Below, in pieces: positions 1 to 10,790 of a DNA stretch of 10,795 nt. Source of the DNA: Cytauxzoon felis (taxonomy: Eukaryota; Apicomplexa; Aconoidasida; Piroplasmida; Theileriidae); the NCBI GenBank assembly GCA_020283715.1, contig JAIQCW010000332.1, positions 1 through 10,795 of the forward strand, read 5' to 3'. Made by a program: the position numbers and the translations under genes. The notes below the pieces were generated by a model. That model saw only the letters and a program-made list of their open reading frames with translations, was not told where the DNA came from and ran no database searches. Every line of letters begins with the position of its first letter. Position 1 is the stretch's first letter.

Positions 1-141
1 TTCAGGGAAGCGAAGGGGGAAATAAATAGAGAAGCTGACGGCAGGAATGTAACCTCGGGTGGACCCGAAAACGATCTACGGGAGTTTGAGGGGGAAGTAA
101 AAGTAAAAGGCTCCACGCCTAGTGGAAAGACCTCAGGTGGA
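1..141 (+). repeat. R1: two tandem right-hand arms, cut by window edge
   Basis: Two plus-oriented A-type units follow each other. The first starts mid-unit at TTCAGGGAAGCG and carries cassette (i) near 32-45; the second has the CCCG...CGGG variant (ACGATCTACGGGAGTTTGAG) and cassette (ii) in its rarer form CTCCACGCCTAGTGGA. The copy ends at CCTCAGGTGGA. The left arm, if present, is outside the window. It lies 39 nt before the splice acceptor at 179-180, so it probably sits in an intron of the plus-strand gene that follows. Confidence 0.8.
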
Positions 142-180
142 GGACGAACTTCGTTCTTTCATGAATATATGATAATATAG

Positions 181-400
181 GTGATTCAGTATTTTGGTCG
201 ATTGATACCAGGTATTTTCAAGGTATGATTGAATATATATATATTAATATAGATTCGCAATATGATATATTTAAAATGATATTAAAAAGGGTTAGTTGTG
301 TTGATTTTATATTGTGTTAATATTTTCTTTATAGATGTGTACATTAATCAAGGTTGAAGATGGTCCAAATCTTTGGAAATTAAAACCAGAATTTATATAA
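181..400 (+). CDS. 3' end of an unrecognised plus-strand gene (last three exons)
   Basis: Three exons can be joined with agreeing phases: 181-222, 253-290 and 335-400 (TAA at 398-400). The introns between them are 30 nt (GTATGA...ATATAG) and 44 nt (GTTAGT...TTATAG), and the first exon follows an acceptor GATAATATAG. The joined tail contains the segments FWSIDTRYFQ, DSQYDIFKMILKR and EDGPNLWKLKPEFI just before the stop. I do not recognise the family; the tail is mixed polar and aromatic with no membrane segment. The gene begins outside the window, and the intron before the first visible exon appears to hold repeat R1. An alternative with a single 112-nt intron (223-334) is possible, but the three-exon model keeps all phases and matches the intron sizes elsewhere. 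It ends 57 bp from the stop of the convergent sphingomyelinase gene. Confidence 0.6.
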
Positions 401-457
401 TAATAAAATAAATTACATTTACAATATAAACAATTAATTATATAATATTTAAATAAA
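401..457. other. Convergent 3' gap of 57 bp
   Basis: Very AT-rich spacer between two stop codons facing each other. Both 3' untranslated regions must overlap here or run into the opposite gene. No repeat or clear signal beyond AATAAA-like strings (AATAAAATAAA at 402-412 on the plus strand). Confidence 0.6.
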
Positions 458-1634
458 TTACCATTTACATATATTTTCATCATCTTCAGATCGATTTTTA
501 GTAATTAACATTGCAAATACAGGATGATGATCACTTATACTAGTGATTTCATAATCACCTTTTGGAAACCATAGCCATCTATATTTTTTTACAGTAACAG
601 GTTTAGTTAACTTCATTAAAATAGTTTTTTGTGATACAATTACATCTAATTTATTAGATGTCATTATATAATCTAATAATTGTTCAGTATCTACATCATT
701 TTCTAAATGGAAGGAAAATAGAGGGTGATGAAATATATACAATCAACTTACGTATTTTACAAAAATCATTAGTTCTAGTACTATATGTTGGATCAGGTAT
801 TTCATCTTTAAATGTATCATAAAATCTAGTTTTCATTCTAGATGAACAAAATAAACGTACAAAATCATTACCTAAATGTTTATTTAAATCTGTATTTAAA
901 TCACCAGCTAATATAATAGGATTATAATTTTTAATATTATATTCTTTATATTTTGATAAAATTTCATCTTTTTTATATAATAATTGTAACCAATCATCAA
1001 TTTCTTTCATTTCTTTAATACGAACTTCATGATGACCTTGATAATCAAATGATTGCATATGTGATCCTATAACATTATATACATAATTACCCTTATTAAT
1101 TACAGCTAATAATGCACCTTTACGTGCAAATGCTGAATAACTCATTATACGATCAAATATTAATTGATGCTTCTCTACTATAGGATATTTAGAGAATATA
1201 CAATTACCACCATTAAATATTGCAAACCAATCACATAATCTTCTACTATAATATGTATTCCAATTAGATACCTCATTTCTAATACCTGATATACCAGTAT
1301 TATATGGTAATATATTTTCTAATTTTTCCTTCAATTTATTATATACTCTATGAGAAAATAATTCATGTAATACTAATACTTCAACATTTAATCTCAAAAC
1401 CAACTTCTTTAAATGAGAACATAATGCATCTTCACGTCTTCTAACATTTGCAAATAATGTCCAACAACTCTCTATACATTGTATATTATAAGTCATCACA
1501 CGCAATGTATTATCACCACCTTTAATCATAAGATTAGAATATGGTTCAGACAAATCATATAATCTACTTGAATCAACACCAGCTCCACACTGGTAATACA
1601 TTAACAATACTACTATTATACTTAAAAATCTCAT
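458..1634 (-). CDS. Secreted neutral-sphingomyelinase-like EEP-family phosphodiesterase
   Basis: Two exons, 1634-752 and 702-458, joined across a 49-nt intron (GTAAGT...CATTTAG) give 375 residues. The start at 1634 is chosen because it opens on a hydrophobic signal peptide (about residues 1-17, MRFLSIIVVLLMYY then QCGAG); an in-frame ATG at 1658 adds eight residues. The endonuclease/exonuclease/phosphatase fold shows its expected motifs in order: MTYN (47-50), HELF with the metal-binding Glu91, RKGAL (171-175), SHMQ (191-194), GDLN (244-247, Asp245 and Asn247), TND (288-290) and SDHHPV (351-356), with His353 as the likely general base. The full motif set and spacing fit Mg-dependent sphingomyelinase/phospholipase C, which releases ceramide and phosphocholine; a related sugar-phosphate or inositol phosphatase is the alternative. 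There is no C-terminal membrane segment, so the product is probably secreted or lumenal. Without splicing the frame would end in the intron and lose the catalytic DHH. Confidence 0.87.
703..751 (-). other. Short intron of the sphingomyelinase-like gene
   Basis: Donor GTAAGT (751-746), acceptor CCATTTAG ending at 703, 49 nt, phase 1. Splicing turns ATA C|AA into Ile-Gln and restores the frame carrying the SDHHPV motif. It has no repeat and serves as a good example of the compact intron class. Confidence 0.85.
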
Positions 1635-2051
1635 TCTGAAATACAATATTACTAACATTAAACAAGTCTATAGGACTAAATATATACACAAACATCAATT
1701 TCACATACACACATGGACAATTTTCCAGAAAAAAAAATTCAAACATTACAATGGGGATTTTACTAGTAATCTGCACAAATTTACAAATATTTAACATATT
1801 AAATGGTATATATTACAATTTAATAGGATATATACCAAGTAAATTCCTCATATTACTACAAATTACCGGTGCATTGATCAATATCATACATACAACCACC
1901 ATTAACACATCACTAAAATTACTACCATTAATCCCCTCCAAAAACAACAACAACAACAATCATACACAATATATATTTAATCTGTAAAAGTATGATATTA
2001 AATATTCATAATTATCAATTTTAAAAAGAAATATAAAACTTCATTTAAAAG
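1635..2051. other. Intergenic region between Sec20-like stop and sphingomyelinase start
   Basis: 417 bp without a repeat-family copy. Both strands stay open for a while: plus 1751-1987 (78 codons, hydrophobic, ending in a poly-Asn run) and minus 1959-1813 (stop TAA at 1813-1815), which reads SNFSDVLMVVVCMILINAP among others. The minus stretch has no ATG giving a convincing start and needs an unseen upstream exon, and the plus ORF has no homology I recognise. The minus strand is G-rich here, as coding strands are in this window, so a missed small minus-strand gene or a spliced 5' untranslated region is possible. It contains the shared 13-mer at 1868-1880. Confidence 0.5.
1868..1880 (-). promoter_or_regulatory. 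Candidate upstream motif, copy 1 (TGATCAATGCACC)
   Basis: The 13-mer GGTGCATTGATCA (plus strand) recurs exactly at 4582-4594. This copy lies 234 bp upstream of the sphingomyelinase-like start. It could be a transcription-factor site such as an ApiAP2 target, but two copies are thin evidence. Confidence 0.3.
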
Positions 2052-4158
2052 TCAAACCTCATCTCTAATTATACCTTCCGTAGGACCACTAATTGCATTT
2101 TTCATCCATCTCAATGGATATAATGATAATTTTATAATCTAAATGTAAAGATTTTGAACCCAGAAAGTCTCAACAAACCAAATAAATAATTTTAAATACT
2201 CTAAATCTCCTCAATGTTATAAAACTACATACAAATAAAAATAAAAAGTAACAACATCTAACAATCCCATAACGCCTCATAGTCCTATATAGAATATGCA
2301 AATTTCTTATCCAAGAGAAACATACTCTTTTCTAACCACACTAAATAATATACTCGCACTGCTAAACCTCTCCTTTAATGCTATTTGATGTTATGAAAAT
2401 CCAAATATAAAGAAAATCATATGCAAATTAATATAACAACCAGAAAAATACAAGAGAACTGCACTTGAGGTCCAATCCTACTCTTCATCTCCCACCTCTT
2501 CTTCCACTGCCGTGGTGGCCTCTTCTATTTAGTTCCCCCTCCGCTTCCCTGAGATCAGCTACGGGTAGTCCACTTGAGGTCCTGCACAACACATCCTTAG
2601 CACCATCTTCCATCATTCCCATGATGGATGATCCATCACAACCTTCATCACTACCCTCGCCACGATCTCTGGGAGTGGCTTCACCCTTCAGGGATAGGTA
2701 ATTAGAAGAGCTGACGGCAGGACGGACCTCAGGTAGAATGAATAGAGGTGGATTGGACCTCAAGTGGAGTACGAAGAGGGTATGTATTGGACTTCGAATG
2801 GGACATTAATGTGGGTAAACAAACTTTTGAGTATATCTTGTTGTTGTGAGATATAATTGGATGATTTGAGTAGTGAAGTTTCTGTAGCTTTCATTTGGTT
2901 GATTTGTGTGATCATCATATTTCTGGTATCTTTGAGTTTTTTAGTAACGATGTTATCATTTTTGCTTGGGGTCATTTCTTGATAAGTTAAATCTTCGTCT
3001 TCAATGCTACGAAAATGAAATTAAAATTACTATTTAATATTAATTGGAAATACTATTCATATACAAGAAATAGAATAAGTAATTAAAAACTAAGATTTAC
3101 AATTGTTCAGTATTATCCACTTGGGATATAAATGAAGATAAACATAAAGTATGATAACGGCGCTCATTCATAGACCACCATTCACTCAATTTATTTTTAT
3201 GCCTAATAATATCATATCAAATGTAATAAATTATAATATACCTCATCAATCTATCATTATAATACTGATATAATGTATACAACTTTACACGATGCTGCTG
3301 ATATGCTACCGATTCACACTGCTTCATCAAATTCTTCAATATCGAAGAATACGAACTTATACGCCTAGACAATCTCAAACGATACTATAAAATAAATTGT
3401 AAACCAGAAGGAAAAAAAACAAATTTATATCTATTGAATCCATCTCCTCTTCCACTTTCACCTCTCTTCGTCTTGCAGACAGCTCTTCCAATTCACTTCC
3501 CCTTCCAGCTCCCGTAGATCGCTTCCAGGTTCCGCTGAGGTTATAAACCTAATCTCGTCGAGATAAAGATAAAGTGATGGAATTCATGTTTGTAGAGATA
3601 TCTCAATGAATATAAATTGAAATGAAGTGATGATGAGTAAATGTAATACAATCCTCAAATTCCTTTTCAATGAAGTATTGAGATTAGAAATTCATCCAAT
3701 ATTCATTGAGATATCATCAGTAGTTTCCCCAGAAATTCAAGATTTCCTTCAAAATTTGAAGTATAAAATGGAACTAGTGTTTGGACCTCAAGTGGAACCC
3801 GCAGCTGATCTACGGGAAGCGAAGGGGGAAGTAAATGGAAGAGCTGTCTGCAAGACGAAGGAACGGCGAGTGGAATGAAGAGTCGGATTGGACCTCGAGT
3901 GGAGTAGACAATAATTGGATATATTTGGAATAGTTGATATTTTTTTTAACTTACTTTATGTATGGCGTAATGTGTATTGAATTCTTCGTTTGAGAGTAGA
4001 AATAGTTCGTTTAGATTGGAATCTAATTGTCTGAGTTCATTGATGATATTATCATCGAATGAATCGGGTAGATTTTTATCATTTTTGAATATATTTTTTT
4101 CACGATAATAGAGATTATCTAGTGAATCGACAATATGCGATGATTTACATGAATTCAT
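2052..4158 (-). CDS. Sec20-like tail-anchored SNARE, seven exons
   Basis: Exons: 4158-3955, 3384-3242, 3202-3101, 3006-2825, 2380-2326, 2284-2200 and 2138-2052; phases agree at all six junctions and give 285 residues. The start is the ATG at 4158; the frame extends a little further upstream without another ATG. Residues 174-228 match the Sec20 pattern: LKDTR, a helix, LLKSSN, then LKERFSSASILFSVVRKE, followed directly by a membrane anchor (about 239-253, CCYFLFLFVCSFITL). The spacing from SSN to the anchor is what Sec20/BNIP1 proteins show. Sec20 acts with Ufe1, Use1 and Sec22 in Golgi-to-ER fusion. The N-terminal 150 residues are helical and charged, as expected for a cytosolic tether-binding part. 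Oddities: a 28-residue lumenal tail ending in RDEV, a GTTTGT donor for exon 4 (the same donor recurs in EPL1), and repeats R3 and R2 in introns 1 and 4. Another Qb-type SNARE is the main alternative. Confidence 0.68.
2462..2768. repeat. R2: A-left/C-right foldback in Sec20-like intron 4
   Basis: The left A-type arm (about 2502-2583, cassette ii) and right C-type arm (about 2654-2722, cassette i) are inverted and closed by outer ends CACTTGAGGTCCAATCC and GGATTGGACCTCAAGTGGA. The spacer holds a perfect small hairpin, CCATCAT-TCCC-ATGATGG (2610-2627). A further degenerate end (ATTGGACTTCGAATGGGA) sits at 2787-2804, outside the right end. The host intron (2381-2824) is 444 nt. A long ORF on each strand crosses it, but these are by-products of the repeat. 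Confidence 0.88.
3444..3903. repeat. R3: long-spacer A/A foldback in Sec20-like intron 1
   Basis: This copy departs from the family rule. Both arms are A-type (left about 3470-3532, right about 3784-3865), both carry cassette (iii) CTGTCTGCAAGACGA, and about 250 bp of AT-rich sequence separates them. That spacer has its own perfect 17-bp inverted repeat, GATATCTCAATGAATAT at 3597-3613 against 3699-3715, so the foldback continues inward. An open frame at 3627-3878 runs across the spacer into the right arm; it has no supporting splice signals or homology and I do not call it a gene. The host intron is 3385-3954, 570 nt. Confidence 0.85.
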
Positions 4159-4679
4159 ATTTAATGATTTACCCTCTATTCCCAATTATATAAACTTTAA
4201 TGAAATAATAATTCCAATTTAACCAAATGGTCATTTGAATTATTTTAAACTGACATTAAAACGATTACGATAATAATTGAATATTTTATAGTTATTATAA
4301 TCCTTTATATATTCTTCATTACATTTACCATATGATTATTATTTAATTTCTAAATGAATATTATTCAAATTACATAAAATTATTAATCATTCACATATTT
4401 TAATTATAAATACTCTGCCTTCCTATATGTATATAACACTTGACCTATTGGCGTTTCGATTATATAAATGTAAACTTATTATCTACTCTATTCAACATAA
4501 ATATTTTATTATAAACATATAATAAACTATAACATTAAATTCAGATTTTTCTTCTTCCTTTTTTTTATATTTATAAGTCCGGGTGCATTGATCATTTAAT
4601 ATGCACGTTGGTGTGTTCATTGTATGTTACATCAATGATCCAAATATAATCTACACATTTCTTCATCATCAATCCACAT
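4159..4679. other. Intergenic region upstream of the Sec20-like gene
   Basis: 521 bp, very AT-rich, between the stop of the coiled-coil gene and the Sec20-like ATG. No convincing exon and no copy of the repeat family. It must hold the 3' end of one gene and the promoter of the next. The only GC-richer patch is around 4575-4640, where the shared 13-mer (4582-4594) is followed by CATTGAT/ATCAATG inverted arms. Confidence 0.6.
4582..4594 (-). promoter_or_regulatory. Candidate upstream motif, copy 2 (TGATCAATGCACC)
   Basis: Exact second copy of the 13-mer found at 1868-1880, in the same orientation relative to its downstream minus-strand gene and 424 bp from the Sec20-like start. Function is a guess from position only. 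Confidence 0.3.
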
Positions 4680-6276
4680 CTATTCATCTTTATCAAATAT
4701 TTTATAACAATCCTAATTTATATAAATAATTTTTTATTCATTAAACTTACTTCATTCTTACAACTATCACCCATATTCTCAATCAAGCCATTCAATATAT
4801 CATTCACAACACGCTTACTCTTGTCAAAATTATCAACATTCTCACGACTACGCAATAATAACTCATTTAAACATTTGTCTCGTTCATCCTATATCAAAGT
4901 AACATAATCACAAAGATGATAACCACTTCAATCGAAGTACAATACACCTGAGGTCGTCATCCACCCGAGGTCATTTCCTTGTCTTGCAGACAGCTCTCCA
5001 CCTGAGGTCAGTCCTGCCGTCAGCTCTTCTAATTACCTATCTCTAAAGAGTAGAGCCACTCCCGGAGATCGTGGCGATGGAGAAGTTAGTGACTGGACCT
5101 CAAGTGGAAGTGGAATACCTGTAAGCGATCTATGGGAGCTGGAAGGGGAAATAAATAGAGAAGCTGACGGCAGGACCAATAGAGGCCAGGATTAGACCTC
5201 AGGTGGAGGACTTATAATAGTCAGTGACTATTCATTGAGTTTGTATGTGATGGATATTATTTGTACTTACAAGTTTCGATTTGAGATTGTTTTTCTCTTT
5301 GTCGTATTTCGTTAGATCGTTGTAGTATCTTTCCTTCATTATCCTCTCCATTTCAAAGTAATCGTTATTCGCTCTCTCGAATTCCATCTGCAACTCCGCT
5401 ATTCTATCCTCTGCTATCCTCAATTTACCACGCAATACCAACTCGTCATAATTAATATAGTCCTATAATTATAAACAATCCAAAAGAACATATCATTCCG
5501 ACGTTCATACTCGATGTTACGTCTAGCAATCGTCCGATCCACCTCTCTTCATCCTGCCGTCAGCTATCCTAATTACCTATCTCTAAAGAGTAGAGCCACT
5601 CCCAGAGATCGTGGCGAATATTATGTTTGTTCTTCCGGGTAGACAATATACCGAAGAATTTTCTCCGGTCCCCTAAGTCACAATTATCCAAATGAAGAAC
5701 TTTAATATAATAATAATATACGCCCCAAATCAAAACTCGAGTTAGTAAATTAAACCTCAAGTGGAATACCCGTAGCTGATCTCAGGGAAGCGAAGGGGGA
5801 GGTAAATAGAGAAGCTGACGGCAGGACCTCAGGTGGAGGCGAGTGGAACAGTGGTTGTAACTTCAGGTGGATTGGATCTCGAGTGGAATGTTCAATGTTT
5901 GTTTGTCTGTATGTGTGGCACTTACATTATTAATGGGTTCTTTGTTATCTTCACCTGAATAATATTTCTCTACACATTAATTTGGGTGTTAACATACTGT
6001 TGATAAAACATTCTACTTGATCTAGTAGCGTGTCTGTATCTTCGATTAATATATCATCCTGGGTGATGAATAAATAGTCATATAAAGATGGACATACATT
6101 AGTACTATTATCAAATTCTAAATCTTTAAGGCAACTTGGATCAACAATCAGCTAAATTTATATAATTTATTTTACCTTTTTAAGGTATAAATTCTAACCT
6201 TGGCATAGTAATTTATGTAGTCACCAAGCATATTAAATTTCCTACATGTCTCATAATCATAAAATATATTAGACAT
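4680..6276 (-). CDS. Unrecognised acidic coiled-coil protein, six exons
   Basis: Exons 6276-6199, 6151-5998, 5954-5926 (only 29 nt), 5462-5271, 4888-4751 and 4712-4680 join in frame to 207 residues. Splice sites are GTTAGA, GTATGT and GTAAGT donors with normal AG acceptors; introns 1, 2 and 5 are 47, 43 and 38 nt, while introns 3 and 4 carry repeats R5 and R4. The N-terminal half is acidic (IEDTDTLLDQVECFINSED). Residues about 92-175 are charged and heptad-like (RIAEDRIAELQMEFERANND, then KYDKEKNNLKSKLDERDKCL), as in a parallel coiled coil. The protein ends IFDKDE. There is no signal peptide or membrane segment. I recognise no family; a structural component such as a kinetochore, centriolar or cytoskeletal protein would fit, but that is speculation. 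Its ATG lies 102 bp after the EPL1 stop. Confidence 0.68.
4945..5207. repeat. R4: C-left/A-right foldback in coiled-coil gene intron 4
   Basis: Reverse-oriented copy. The left C-type arm is about 5011-5076 with cassette (i), preceded by an extra cassette (iii) at 4979-4997. The right A-type arm is about 5097-5183 (GCGATCTATGGGAGCTGGAAGG variant), cassette (i). Several boundary modules (CACCTGAGGTC) are stacked at the left end. The host intron is 4889-5270, 382 nt. Confidence 0.87.
5538..5887. repeat. R5: C-left/A-right foldback with E-module spacer, coiled-coil gene intron 3
   Basis: The left C-type arm is about 5550-5616, the right A-type arm about 5753-5835, both with cassette (i). Beyond the right arm follow a bare GGCGAGTGGAAC piece and two more boundary modules ending GATCTCGAGTGGA. 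The spacer (5617-5752) is the longest copy of a module shared with R7 and the R11-R12 gap. The host intron is 5463-5925, 463 nt. Confidence 0.87.
5617..5752 (+). repeat. E-module spacer of R5
   Basis: Begins near GTTCTTCCGGGTAGACAATA (5629-5648), continues through AATTTTCTCCGGTCCCCT and turns AT-rich before the A-type arm. A diverged copy with the same order (GTTCCTCCGGGTA..., AATTTTCTAGGTCC) occupies 10552-10683 and is also followed by a plus-strand A-type arm; R7 keeps only the first 20-odd bases. Confidence 0.65.
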
Positions 6277-6378
6277 TTCTATTCATATCTTATAAAATAT
6301 ATATTCTAATCTATTAAAAATTATTATTCATTCTATTATTGTCATTTTTGCATTCTAATGCACATTTATACATCATAC
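6277..6378. other. 102-bp gap between EPL1 stop and coiled-coil gene start
   Basis: AT-rich, no repeat. The 3' untranslated region of EPL1 and the promoter of the next gene must fit in or overlap this space. A hydrophobic ORF reading from 6339 on the plus strand is antisense to the last EPL1 exon. Confidence 0.6.
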
Positions 6379-9300
6379 TCAATCTTGCTTATTATACACC
6401 TTGTACGACTCTGGAACCGTCATATTCTCCAACATATTCAATATCTCTAATTGACGTCCCAAATAACCCGGCATACTATAAACAGAAAAACCTATATATT
6501 AATATTTCATCATCAAACAACAACGAGATAAATATATGTAACTTGTAGTATACCAATAGGTACCTTCCTTTCCACCCGAGGTCTAATCAATGTCTTCCAA
6601 TCGCCGTTCCACCTGAAGTCTTTCCACTAGGCGTGGAGCCTCTTCTATTTACCTCCCCCTCAAGTTCCCTGAGATCACTTTCGGGTTCCACCTGAGGTCC
6701 AATGACTAACTTCTCTTCACCGCGATCTCTGGGAGTGGCTCTACTCTTTAGAGATAGGTAAATAGAAGAAGGCTCCACGCCGAGTGGAACAGAGGTTGTA
6801 ACCTCAGGCGAAATTGGAAGATGTAAAATTATTTTGTATTGAATAATGTACATACCTATTGTATTGTATGGGTGTCCGGCTTCATAAGGGTTAGCGAATC
6901 CGGGTAGTGTATTGTGTATATTATGATTATATATATCATAATGATTGTATTTATTAATATCGAATGCTTGTTTGAGTTGTGTAGTTATATTATCTAATGA
7001 TTCTATTGATGATTTTTTATATGTTGTATCATATAAATGTCTACGATCTACCCATACTCTACCACCACGACCAATCCTTCTTGATAAACGCATCTTACTA
7101 TAATTCTCAGCTTCCGGTAATGAAGGCAATGATTTAACACCAACTATATTACCAATCTCATCCAAACTACGTATACTCATACTATTATTGTTTGTAGAAC
7201 TTGAATCATCCCTATTATTATATTATTATCCAAATAAATACAATAAATATATACTGTCCATTCCACTCGAGGTCCAACCGACGACCGTTAGGTCTAGGTC
7301 CAATCCACCACTATTCGTCCTGCCGTCAGCTCCTCTATTTATCTCCCCCTTCGCTTCCCTGAGATCAGCTGCGGGTAGTCCACTTGAGTTACATCTACTA
7401 TATCACGTTCTTCCGGGTAGACATTCTTTGTTACTCCGGGTTAACGCCGCGATCTCCGGGAGTGGCTTTACTCTTTAGAGATAGGTAAATAGAAGAGCTG
7501 TCTGCAAGACGACCTCAGGTGGAATGGCGAGTGGGAAGAAGAGGTGGATTGGACCTCAGGTGGAGTTGAATGAGGAGTAGGATTGGAGTTTGGGTGGATA
7601 ACTTTTAATATACGACGGATGTTTCTGGATATGAACATACTTTGTTCTTCTTTTTTTGATAGCTCGTGATCTTTTAATATCGACAATGCAATGCCAAAAT
7701 GGTGAAGAGTAATTATTATCTATAGTTTCATTACGCCTTTGATCCATTAAAATTAATTCTAATTCAGCCAATATCAATTTTTTCTCATCACGCTGCTTCA
7801 TCTTCATCAATAATTTCAATACCTAAATTCATGAAAATTAAAATTATTTATGAACTCTAGCAAGGTATGGACATTCCATTGAGGTCCGTCCACCTTATCT
7901 TCCACTCGCCTCCACCTGAGGTCCAATCCTACTTTCCTTCCACTAGCCGTGGCGGCTCTTCTATTTACTTCCCCCTCCGCTTCCCTGAGATCAGCTACGG
8001 GTTTATCGCCACGATCTCCGGGAGTGGCTTTACTCTTTAGAGATAGGTAATTAAAAGAGCTGACGGCAGGATGAACAGACTTGGATTGGACCTCAGGTGG
8101 AGTACTAAGAGGGGTGTATCGGATTTCTGAGGAATATAAATACCTTTTTGAATCCATCGATGATATGATAAAGTCTTTGTAATGTTTCAACTTGTGTTCT
8201 TCTAGGTCTTCTTAGAAGCATTTTATCTTTAGCCCTGGGTCTAAATAATGCAAGAGGTGATGTATCATTCGGATTTGTCTGAGGCCATAAATGCCTAACA
8301 AAAGGTAAACCATTCTCAATACGCATCTTTATCCAATACTAAAAGTATTATCAATATGTATAAATACAAACGAAATCTTAATTGAGGTTACCTCTACGTT
8401 GGTCTTGCAGACAGCTCTTCACTCGAGGTCCGTCCTGCCGTCAGCTCTTCTATTTAGCTATCTCTAAAGAGTAAAGCCACTCCCGGAGATCGTGGCGAAG
8501 ATAGTCATTGGACCTCAAGTGGAACCCGAGAACGATCTACGGGAGTTTGAGGGGGAAGTAATTAGAAGAGGCCTCCACGGCGAGTGGAACACTGGTTCTA
8601 ACTTCAAGTGGAGAGCTGTCTGAGGACGAGGAGGTGTGAAGTATTATGGATTCACATGACGACTGGTCAATTTGATATTGGAGCTGGAAATAAACTTACG
8701 GCATGTACATCACGTAATATATACGCTGGTACAACAATATTATGATTCCTAGCAACTATTAATGCTAAAAATATCATTAAAATATATCAATCATTATACA
8801 TACCCAGTTCATATGACAATTGATTATTACGACACTTTGCACAAGTCTTTTCAAATATATCCATCAATAATAAAACTCCATCTATTTATATACATAATAA
8901 GAAATTATAATAGAAGATCAACCCTTCCATTACATAGAGCTACTCCACCTGAGGTCCAATCCAACTCTGTTCCACTCGCCGTGGAGGCTTCTTTTAATTA
9001 CTTCCCCCTTCGCTTCCCTGAGATCAGCTGCGGGTAGTCCACTTGAGGTCCTATCCTCACCACCTTCTCTCCGCCGCGATCTCCGGGAGTGGCTTTACTC
9101 TTTAGAGATAGGTAATTAGAAGAGGCCTCCACGGCGAGTGGAACACTGGTTGTAACCTCAGGTGGAGACGAGTGGAAGAAGAGTATGATTGGACTTCGGA
9201 TAGATGAATGGTAATGAATGTTGTATTATAATGGGTGAAATATTTGATATATTAGCTACTATATCGATTGTAAAGCATACCATGGTTAATTGTACATCGG

Positions 9301-9814
9301 TTGATCGTTGATTGAAGAGTTGTATAAACTGTGTATCATCTTTTCGTAGATTATAATGTATAATGGTATTATCACTGATTTTGATGCCATTAACACTAAA
9401 GAATATAATGGATTAATATTTATGACTAACCTTGTTCGATTTTGTATGAATCGTATATATTTAGGTGGTATATTGAATGGATAATTGATAATATTTTCAT
9501 CTTTTTGTAAAATTGTTGGTGGTACAGTAATTTTTTTACGAATAATATCTTTAACAGGCTTAGTTTTATTAACATTTGATAATTTTGAGGTGATTACACT
9601 TTCATATAATACATTTAAATCATCTAAAGTGTCTTGAGTAGCATTTTCCTTTTGTATTGACTATTTGTAATAAAAATTTTTAAAATTTAATAAAAAAACA
9701 AACTATAAATTTATCAAAATCATTGCGTGTTCTAATGATTTTTATATCTCTAGTTAGATCTACAGTTTTTGTTTTTTGAGTTTTATTCTGATTTTGTACA
9801 ATTGGTGGTGGCAT
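6379..9814 (-). CDS. EPL1: Enhancer-of-polycomb-like protein (EPL1), NuA4-type histone acetyltransferase subunit, nine exons
   Basis: Exons: 9814-9704, 9660-9431, 9395-9281, 8881-8804, 8764-8700, 8338-8144, 7822-7641, 7211-6856 and 6491-6379; about 481 residues. All phases agree except exon 3 to 4, where one base is lacking. The EPL1 layout is clear: an N-terminal basic part with DLTRDIKIIRTRNDFDKF; PFNIPPKYIRF (98-108); HYNLRKDDTQFIQLFN (127-142); MDIFEK; then NIVVPAYILRDVHAYWIKMR (186-205) leading to SPLALFRPRAKDKMLLRR and the long basic/acidic helix KLLMKMKQRDEKKLILAELE. Downstream lies a basic RRIGRGGRVWVDRR motif (370-382 region). In other eukaryotes EPL1 scaffolds the MYST acetyltransferase that acetylates H4/H2A, so this is expected to be nuclear. 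Five of its eight introns hold repeats R6 to R10; the other three are 43, 35 and 39 nt. Start chosen at the first ATG after a short upstream stop-closed ATG. Confidence 0.82.
6571..6811. repeat. R6: A-left/C-right foldback in EPL1 intron 8
   Basis: The left arm (about 6621-6690) has the A-type variant CTCAAGTTCCCTGAGATCAC; the right arm (about 6719-6790) is C-type with CGCGATCTCTGGGAGTGG. Both arms carry the rarer cassette (ii) form GGCTCCACGCC-N-AGTGGAA, so the two arms resemble each other in a feature uncommon in the family. The host intron is 6492-6855, 364 nt. Confidence 0.87.
7262..7598. repeat. R7: A-left/C-right foldback in EPL1 intron 7
   Basis: The left A-type arm is about 7318-7388 with cassette (i); the right C-type arm about 7445-7516 with cassette (iii), so cassettes differ. 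The spacer keeps a short E-module piece, GTTCTTCCGGGTAGACATTC (7407-7426). The ends are ragged: extra boundary modules at 7262-7308 and 7540-7598, the last degenerate (GGATTGGAGTTTGGGTGGA). The host intron is 7212-7640, 429 nt. Confidence 0.87.
7874..8101. repeat. R8: compact A-left/C-right foldback in EPL1 intron 6
   Basis: The smallest complete copy. The left A-type arm (about 7935-8003, cassette ii in the form GCCGTGGCGG) meets the right C-type arm (about 8007-8068, cassette i) with almost no spacer (GGGTTTATCGCCACG). This makes it the closest to a minimal unit. The host intron is 7823-8143, 321 nt, the shortest of the repeat-bearing introns. Confidence 0.88.
8381..8630. repeat. R9: C-left/A-right foldback in EPL1 intron 5
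   Basis: Reverse-oriented copy. The left C-type arm (about 8432-8497) carries cassette (i) with an extra (iii) at 8400-8418. The right arm (about 8511-8590) is the A-type relative with CCCG-(11 nt)-CGGG and GTTTGAGGGGG, cassette (ii), followed near 8611-8629 by a degenerate (iii). Extra cassette (iii) pieces therefore sit at both outer ends. The host intron is 8339-8699, 361 nt. Confidence 0.87.
8944..9200. repeat. R10: A-left/C-right foldback in EPL1 intron 3
   Basis: The left A-type arm is about 8969-9048, the right C-type arm about 9072-9140; both carry the same cassette (ii), CTCCACGGCGAGTGGAAC, over at least 18 matching bases. The host intron (8882-9280, 399 nt) is the one whose flanking exons do not join in frame. 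Confidence 0.88.
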
Positions 9815-10279
9815 TTTTGTTATAATTAATTTATCATTTTAATCATTGCCATCTTTAATATTTTCTAGGGAAAATAAGAACTTTGTATTAGTATGGGCCA
9901 TTTATAGGGATTCATACAGTATACAAATCCAATGTCTATTAAGAAAAAAATTACGATTTTGAAATTATACAACACATAAACATTAATATTTTTTGGGTGT
10001 AATATTTATATTTATATTGTAAGAGGTGGTAAAATGGTCCATTTATATATAGTTTAACTCGTCTATAAATTAGGCATTATTTTTTTTAATTAAAAAGGAT
10101 AATAGAAGATGTTTTAATTTCTATAGATAAATATTAATTTAAATTTAAATAAATTATGTAAATTTATATAATTGTTAAAATTGATCCTATTCAATGCATC
10201 ATGTCTAGATTTTATACATGATACCATTTGAAGGCATAATTAGCCTAGTTCATAACTACTATATATAATATCAAATACT
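9815..10279. other. Upstream region of EPL1
   Basis: 465 bp of AT-rich sequence with no exon I can support and no repeat-family copy. It holds two copies of ATGG-N-CCATTTATA (9893-9906 and 10034-10047, plus strand), 141 bp apart, and a TTGATCC...CAATGCATC string near 10182-10201 loosely like the shared upstream 13-mer. A minus-strand open tail reading VFDIIYSSYELG before a stop at about 10240 could be the end of another gene, but nothing confirms it. Confidence 0.5.
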
Positions 10280-10535
10280 TCCACTCGAAGTCCAATCATT
10301 ATCTCTACTCCACTTGTTCTTCCACTAGGCGTGGAGGCTCTCCACCTGAGGTCAGTCCTGCCGTCAGCTTCTCTATTTAGTTGTCCCTCCGCTTCCCTGA
10401 GATCAGCTACGGGTACTCCACTTGAGGTCCAATGACTACTTCCGCCACGATCTCCGGGAGTGGTATTACCGTTTGCGGGGAGGTAAATAGAAAAGGCCTC
10501 CACGGCGAGTGGAAAGGGGTGTAGTACTAGACCTC
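10280..10535. repeat. R11: A-left/C-right foldback upstream of EPL1
   Basis: The left A-type arm (about 10357-10428) carries cassette (i) with an extra (ii) at 10322-10342. The right arm (about 10441-10510) is a divergent C-type: GCCACGATCTCCGGGAGTGG is kept, but the CTCTTTAGAGAT part is replaced by ACCGTTTGCGGGGAGG, making it a C/A hybrid. Cassette (ii) follows. No flanking exon is visible, so whether it lies in an intron is open. Confidence 0.83.
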
Positions 10536-10683
10536 TACTAGACAAAAGTCTGTTCCTCCGGGTATATTTATATTGATAAAATTTTCTAGGTCCTCTTATT
10601 GGAATAATACACTTTAAATGATAAATGTTATCAACTTATGGTACAACTATACTATTGGATATAAATTCACAATTCAGTAGAAG
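10536..10683 (+). repeat. E-module copy between R11 and R12
   Basis: Starts near GTTCCTCCGGGTATATTTAT (10552-10571) and keeps the AATTTTCTAGGTCC segment seen in R5, then drifts into unique AT-rich DNA before the R12 arm. No coding potential recognised. Confidence 0.55.
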
Positions 10684-10790
10684 GGACCTCAAGTGGAACC
10701 CGCAGCTGATCTCAGGGAAGCGGAGGGGGAAATAAATAGAAGAGGCCACCACGGCGAGTGGAAAGAGAGTAGGATTGGACCTCAAGTGGA
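10684..10790 (+). repeat. R12: right-hand A-type arm at the window edge
   Basis: One complete plus-oriented arm from boundary module GGACCTCAAGTGGA through GATCTCAGGGAAGCGGAGGG, cassette (ii) and outer end GGATTGGACCTCAAGTGGA. It is the cleanest single arm in the window and a good consensus seed. With the E-module before it, the order E then A matches the right half of R5. Confidence 0.88.

Follow-up and report, generated by a model that had tools for sequence, protein, structure and literature searches.

Among described sequence families, the close counterparts of the one considered here include the Rickettsia palindromic elements (RPE), which the available part of the source presents as short palindromic repeats lying in frame in unrelated protein genes, where they carry a peptide-coding frame, and occurring outside of genes as well (PMC10969869). 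For the Apicomplexa, the available part of a survey of 64 genomes describes no DNA transposons, few elements in piroplasmids (long interspersed nuclear element (LINE)-like ones in some Babesia and T. equi) and no transposable elements in Cytauxzoon felis, whose candidate miniature inverted-repeat transposable elements (MITEs) were removed as likely false positives (PMC9141347). We examined a 10,795-bp window of C. felis DNA, which is the whole of contig C169 in an 8.62-Mb assembly of 181 contigs, together with further contigs of that assembly. It is highly probable, in our judgment, that the repeat recurring in this window belongs to a GC-rich palindromic, apparently non-autonomous family that has spread through the C. 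felis nuclear genome, includes in-frame exonic copies and has been sorted by selection. The first-pass annotation of the window knew of no described piroplasmid element with this structure, and our own search of the open-licence PMC literature, with subscription papers and preprints outside its reach, likewise found no description of these elements among the papers listed.

That annotation had counted twelve copies or part-copies, each complete one a left minus-strand and a right plus-strand arm that could fold into a long imperfect hairpin, and all of this was borne out. Two profile models, one for an A arm and one for a B arm, were built from the window copies and used in an nhmmer search, which resolves the window into 12 blocks built of 23 arms (Table 1); a repeat finder lists direct-repeat families at 60% identity or more, with 78-97% complementarity among the 25 longest inverted pairs listed. 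Across a non-random sample of 229 kb at 31-33% GC (the window, the 148 kb of C75, 50 kb of C108 and 20 kb of C94), the models find 238 arms, the 23 of the window included. Neighboring arms are mostly arranged minus then plus, and 76 of the 79 close minus-plus pairs join one A to one B arm (39 AB and 37 BA, with 2 BB and 1 AA), so the unit is asymmetric and directional, a property that the first-pass annotation had not pointed out. In the window copies, an A/B unit measures about 190-340 bp, its inverted B and A arms set on either side of a short middle. Within an arm, small interchangeable modules follow one another, namely the border motif GACCTCAAGTGGA, the core GATCTC.GGGA with its variants, the box GTAAATAGAAGAG and a tail module that comes in three alternative forms. 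Border and tail modules repeat outward in varying number and so leave the element without a fixed outer end. The arms are separated by short cassettes or by one of two conserved longer middles, the first about 250 bp long and set between two A arms (at least 11 copies, 73-82% identity among the matches listed), the second AT-rich and about 360-430 bp long (at least 5 copies, four A-A and one B-A, 78-87% identity among the matches listed). The AT-rich class is perhaps linked to 3' ends or terminators. A further copy that matches it in part, C75:107812-108205, lies next to an arm that was assigned to a tandem gap. In the direction from B to A, the A/B unit presents one long open frame, for which an alignment of 14 of the 29 exonic peptides discussed below gives the abridged consensus PPEVQS..SSNYLSLKG.ATPGDRGG...SDLRELEGEVNREG.

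The capacity to fold is pronounced. With 20 shuffles each, the median z is -4.2 for the 79 elements (52 below -3) as against -0.2 for 34 control segments (2 below -3), and at least half of the left arm is paired with the right arm in 55 of the 79. The tail modules of paired arms are of the same type in 30 of 71 typed pairs, which does not exceed chance (25.2 expected, p = 0.13), and no covariation was seen; the fold may thus simply be inherited from inverted duplication rather than maintained.

It is evident that the family extends well past the window. The core GATCTCNGGGA has 5,210 matches in the 8.62 Mb, compared with 4 for a reversed control pattern, a count far beyond chance. When scaled by the 150 core matches that correspond to 235 arms in the sample (C94 left out), the extrapolated genome total is approximately 8,160 arms in approximately 4,400 blocks. 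At about 105 bp per arm, roughly 10% of the assembly would by this extrapolation appear to be one palindromic family, yet the available part of the published survey finds no elements in C. felis (PMC9141347).

The location of the copies was assessed with a gene finder of our own writing, a hidden-Markov model trained on long open reading frames (ORFs), which predicts 108 genes in the sample and 382 introns, the splice consensus of which is clean. In an initial census, with exons barred from elements, 92 of 125 merged blocks were called intronic; some of these called introns had poor splice sites and extra A arms, and they proved to be ORFs running through the elements. The final census uses this same version of the gene finder and counts a block as exonic when an open frame passes through it and both flanks have a coding score above 4 (25 blocks); four more blocks, situated in these ORFs or in others of similar length, were added by hand although one flank scored below 4. 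A version that allows exons in elements splits many in-frame copies into mixed classes, and it served here solely for the list of blocks, the base totals of introns and exons and the spliced proteins of the window. Among the resulting 128 blocks in 229 kb, 67 are in introns, 29 in frame in exons, 18 in convergent gaps, 8 in tandem gaps, 2 in divergent gaps (one of them the uncertain window block at 8944-9164) and 4 at the edges of contigs. In unmasked DNA, this corresponds to 2.3 blocks per kb in introns, 2.8 in convergent, 0.66 in tandem and 0.22 in divergent gaps, and 0.21 in exons; both divergent gaps (p = 6e-6) and tandem gaps (p = 6e-4) differ from convergent ones. Such densities look like avoidance of promoters and coding DNA, not attraction to introns.

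These figures revise the earlier picture, in which gaps between genes held no copies, no protein was encoded and a foldback transposon might survive mainly in introns. Neither of the first two statements holds as a general rule, since 28 of the 128 blocks are in gaps, besides the 4 at contig edges, and 29 are in frame in long ORFs. The third is right as to a foldback-like, apparently non-autonomous element, but not as to one that belongs essentially to introns. Convergent gaps alone reach the density of introns, all gaps together being less dense, and a minority of copies turn out to be exons of expressed genes. In the window itself, most copies are indeed intronic: the gene model places 9 of the 12 blocks in 8 predicted introns (two of these blocks being the two arms of one AA element), but two blocks touch the contig ends and allow no placement, and the block at 8944-9164 is assigned by three versions of the gene finder to an intron ending at donor 9280, to a tandem gap or to a divergent gap.

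That intronic copies are spliced around is indicated by HSP90, the profile of which is matched by consecutive exons at the contiguous positions 1-255, 253-419 and 418-502, while both of the introns between them contain arms (26612-26681, and an AB pair in the intron 27222-27714); this protein is piroplasmid, its best named matches being those of Theileria annulata (84% identity) and Babesia duncani (83%). Outside support for one element intron of the window comes from its Sec20 match, which grows from profile positions 3-52 in a single ORF to 3-91 in the spliced product spanning the intron around 2462-2766. It nevertheless seems highly improbable that the family is an intron-specific foldback element or a structured RNA that perhaps assists splicing. 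The intronic share in the census and in the window, the strong folding and the length of element introns (median 372 bp, n = 85, a set that then included exonic copies, compared with 44 bp for 297 element-free introns) all speak for such a role, but about half of the blocks lie outside of introns (29 exonic and 32 in gaps or at edges), convergent gaps are as dense as introns, the arms do not covary, and intronic pairs occur in both orientations without bias (21 BA and 17 AB, p = 0.63). A count of 44 BA and 17 AB, which seemed to point to a signal at the RNA level, fell to these 21 and 17 once miscalled exonic copies had been removed. We likewise give very little credence to the idea that each element created its own host intron in the manner of introners. 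In its favor, what remains of 43 single-element introns outside of the element has a median total length of 130 bp, as compared with 44 bp for a whole element-free intron (the set held some exonic copies); however, the splice sites lie outside of the repeat, often by tens of bases, the flanks share no common sequence by eye, and many copies are found in exons and gaps.

All 24 exonic A/B pairs, which occupy 23 of the 29 blocks (the other 6 being without such a pair), run B then A along the gene (binomial p = 4e-6 on the 19 frame-testable pairs). All 45 exonic A arms are in sense and 29 of 30 B arms in antisense, in a single frame, with indels shifting parts of many A arms. After 17 pairs without a frame anchor were dropped, this canonical B-to-A frame was open in all 19 exonic pairs, as against 6 of 29 intronic and 3 of 11 intergenic ones. 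For the non-exonic copies, this amounts to 9 of 40, whereas the other five frames together were open in 3 of 200 tries; the canonical frame is accordingly a property of the element, one that non-exonic copies seem to be losing. Furthermore, a genome-wide search with one element peptide gave 4,223 candidates, and of the 150 that were scored, 45 fall within open frames that extend over 300 aa or more.

The host genes are varied. An ORF of 2,545 aa that contains 20 arms matches CPSF-A, another of 2,245 aa contains 7 arms, and further hosts include a MIZ/SP-RING and a GAF protein, an ankyrin-methyltransferase ORF with a domain on each side of the insert, and an ORF whose NAT10/Kre33 match lies upstream of the insert only. 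In the asparaginyl-tRNA synthetase (AsnRS), PDB-matching stretches at 5-140 and 274-415 flank the insert with none within it, and the insert itself, about 130 residues long, is absent from all eight aligned homologues (T. annulata, T. parva, T. orientalis, T. equi, B. bovis, B. bigemina, B. microti and P. yoelii) and sits at a loop of variable length in these relatives. The AsnRS of T. annulata, T. parva and T. orientalis (P0131, P0135 and P0128) have an extra stretch of their own upstream, at a different site from the element.

Could the in-frame copies be cryptic introns that are removed from the mRNA, such that nothing is translated? To carry a hairpin within a domain of a tRNA synthetase would seem costly, and splice scoring separates the classes only in part, with no single threshold dividing them; still, we consider this very unlikely. 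The strongest splice signals up to 200 nt away from exonic copies (medians of 3.5 for donors and 3.9 for acceptors) are closer to those of random mid-exon positions (4.5 and 3.8, n = 47) than to those of intronic copies (5.9 and 4.8), and both sites score at least 6 in 0 of 29 exonic copies, 7 of 67 intronic copies and 1 of 47 random positions. Moreover, spliced introns require neither an open frame nor a fixed orientation, and in cf76 the element is kept in cDNA products, as described below. It is also unlikely that exon shuffling has spread a true protein domain, of which the intronic and intergenic copies would be debris, although this would account for one conserved frame that stays open in non-exonic copies more often than the other five. 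No match was found in Pfam for 4 of the 29 exonic peptides or in NCBIfam for 10 of the 29, most copies are non-coding, and diversity by codon position is much the same as in non-exonic copies (exonic to non-exonic ratios at positions 1, 2 and 3 of 1.06, 0.90 and 1.07 for A and 1.03, 0.87 and 1.01 for B, the lowest being position 2 of B).

For one gene, the vaccine candidate cf76, retention of an exonic copy in the mRNA is supported by published cDNA. According to the available part of that publication, cf76 was cloned from C. felis cDNA, its clones were sequenced and it was described as a single exon (PMC3748084). Two of the published primers match the genome exactly, facing each other at C114:6472 and C114:8778, 2.3 kb apart, which identifies the genome as that of C. 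felis, and the ORF encodes 722 aa here compared with 723 aa as published (PMC3748084). It contains two in-frame B-A elements, at nt 570-813 and 1719-1968 (L037:712-955 and L037:1861-2110 on C114), and two published fragment primers lie within the first. The genomic distances between the fragment primers (720, 828 and 675 bp) equal the C. felis cDNA product sizes listed there, while the full-length product is listed as 2172 bp, compared with 2166 bp between primer ends here (PMC3748084). The C-terminal fragment, reported in the same available text as the most reactive with immune cat sera (the N-terminal and central ones being weaker; PMC3748084), holds the whole of element 2; of element 1, parts are present in each of the two weaker fragments. 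That an epitope common to the elements lies behind this reactivity is speculation. A third B-A element is found downstream of cf76 (L037:3155-3354 on C114), in an open frame of 771 aa.

With regard to spread, the clearest case is a 326-bp exonic element present at C75:63484-63809 and C75:65113-65438, 100% identical and inverted, in frame in two neighboring genes on opposite strands, with no evident target duplication at this pair. Other copies share patches of 97-98% identity over about 100 bp, which suggests that modules may be shuffled between copies by recombination or gene conversion. The copies themselves would have been inserted by some enzyme or repair process, in a manner largely blind to the site, and selection would then have sorted them: introns and 3' gaps would tolerate any copy, exons only those with an open B-to-A frame, and promoters hardly any. 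A similar sorting of insertions by selection has been proposed for RPE. Reverse transcriptase (RVT_1) is represented by a single gene (C56:73693-74436, in a 1,010-aa open frame), which we would guess to be telomerase.

Several observations weigh against this interpretation. The density is uneven, the 20 kb of C94:60001-80000 containing just 3 arms, many fewer than the average of the sample would predict. Flanks of 96 elements reveal no target-site duplication (mean longest common substring 5.06, compared with 4.96, sd 0.09, when shuffled), although old copies and variable ends could hide one, and neither MULE nor DDE_3 transposases, the two families searched, were found in the genome; mobility is therefore inferred from dispersal. 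The gene structures are those of our own gene finder, with transcript support solely from the published cloning of cf76, and the product sizes given for it may have been taken from the design. Open frames served in part to select the exonic set, and the finding that all are open is to that extent circular; the orientation, the single frame and the gaps in homologues are not. Lastly, the codon-position ratios give no clear sign of a selected peptide, which looks tolerated rather than useful.

A more far-reaching proposal, possible but doubtful at present, is that the family represents selfish DNA of a eukaryotic nucleus that is translated on the scale of the genome, with about 1,000 in-frame copies (an extrapolation of 29 in 128 sampled blocks to the approximately 4,400 blocks genome-wide), with exonic or otherwise coding-competent copies as the source of the others, and with the shared peptide as a recurrent antigen. 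A coding-competent source is proposed because the coding frame is still open in non-coding copies far more often than any of the others would suggest, and the observation that position 3 is the most diverse in exonic and non-exonic copies alike would fit it. The antigenic part is proposed because the most reactive cf76 fragment holds one whole element, but the two weaker fragments hold parts of the other.

The copies of the window, together with those having AT-rich middles elsewhere in the sample, are listed in Table 1. Scans of the window with Rfam (E up to 1) and for tRNAs gave no match. At 458-1667, the window also contains a minus-strand gene with an endonuclease/exonuclease/phosphatase domain, for which none of 992 candidate protein homologues reached E 0.001.

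Table 1. Elements in the 10,795-bp window (positions without prefix) and AT-rich-middle elements on other contigs
Position	Feature	Arms (strand)	Basis or remark
2..141	two A-type arms at left contig end, part copy	(+)	nhmmer arm models
2462..2766	complete element in predicted intron 2381-2824 of minus-strand Sec20-like gene	A arm 2462-2581 (-), middle cassette, B arm 2657-2766 (+)	gene model and Sec20 match
3464..3903	AA-type element with conserved ~250-bp middle, predicted intron 3385-3954	A arm 3464-3541 (-), A arm 3784-3903 (+)	arm and gene models
4962..5207	complete element, predicted intron 4889-5270	B arm 4962-5077 (-), A arm 5096-5207 (+)	arm and gene models
5532..5871	element, predicted intron 5463-5925	B arm 5532-5618 (-), A arm 5754-5871 (+)	arm and gene models
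6571..6808	complete element, predicted intron 6492-6855	A arm 6571-6699 (-), B arm 6717-6808 (+)	arm and gene models
7296..7562	complete element, predicted intron 7212-7640	A arm 7296-7388 (-), B arm 7445-7562 (+)	arm and gene models
7911..8099	complete element, predicted intron 7823-8143	A arm 7911-8003 (-), B arm 8006-8099 (+)	sense frame open, flanks not scoring as coding
8427..8612	complete element, predicted intron 8339-8699	B arm 8427-8499 (-), A arm 8511-8612 (+)	arm and gene models
8944..9164	complete element, intron or gap undecided	A arm 8944-9050 (-), B arm 9070-9164 (+)	gene models disagree
10280..10790	element with extra A arm at right contig end	A arm 10280-10429 (-), B arm 10441-10536 (+), A arm 10685-10790 (+)	arm models
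C108:5741-6106, C108:21522-21883, C108:40560-40957, C75:116428-116798, C75:136690-137120	AT-rich-middle elements		arms all in convergent gaps

In practical terms, C. felis gene models need to be re-read, and vaccine work on cf76 should consider that part of the antigen is a repeat common to many other proteins of the parasite.

When compared with known systems, the C. felis family shares features with several. Like MITEs and foldback elements, its units are short and dispersed, with inverted arms around variable middles and no transposase seen inside; the terminal inverted repeats typical of MITEs are present in imperfect form, usually as one A and one B arm, and the long modular inverted repeats of foldback elements, able to fold back, are present too. 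Unlike either, it has an in-frame coding habit and no fixed outer end. Neither a target-site duplication, which age and variable ends could hide, nor a related transposase, sought in the MULE and DDE_3 families, was found. Introners are also repeat families tied to introns, some with inverted ends, as the available part of the source describes (PMC9860276), whereas the C. felis element lies inside longer introns, carries no splice sites, does not form a whole intron, and is found in exons and gaps as well. PARCELs are palindromic coding repeats in microbes including eukaryotes, but are presented in the available description as 25-residue tandem repeats in ORFs without assigned function (PMC2996958), whereas in C. 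felis one or a few units interrupt conserved genes, and no 25-residue tandem is obvious in the alignment of 14 of the 29 exonic peptides. In nematomorph mitochondria, inverted repeats likewise occur in eukaryotic coding sequence, but both arms there encode conserved native residues of mitochondrial DNA, according to the available text (PMC6649704), whereas the C. felis palindrome is an added insert in nuclear genes.

RPE are a further close counterpart. In C. felis, too, a palindromic unit lies in frame in unrelated protein genes, as seen in the 29 of 128 blocks and in AsnRS, and the element would seem to work like RPE with no detected homology to them. The NCBIfam library holds an RPE model, and the 10 exonic peptides (of 29) that were compared with this library had no match. 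A scan of prokaryotic genome contigs with one peptide pattern returned 36 stretches, none confirmed as a relative, and two IMG/VR contigs with 39% identity over a short stretch were set aside, the translated piece of one looking like a chance match. There are also differences, as RPE are bacterial, about 150 bp long and number 44 in R. conorii, whereas the C. felis units are about 190-340 bp long, number in the thousands, are built of swappable modules and reside in a eukaryotic nuclear genome, where they also occupy spliceosomal introns. In-frame selfish palindromes are known from Rickettsia, while thousands of them in a eukaryotic nucleus, sorted by both splicing and frame, would allow the tolerance of proteins for random peptide insertions to be measured.

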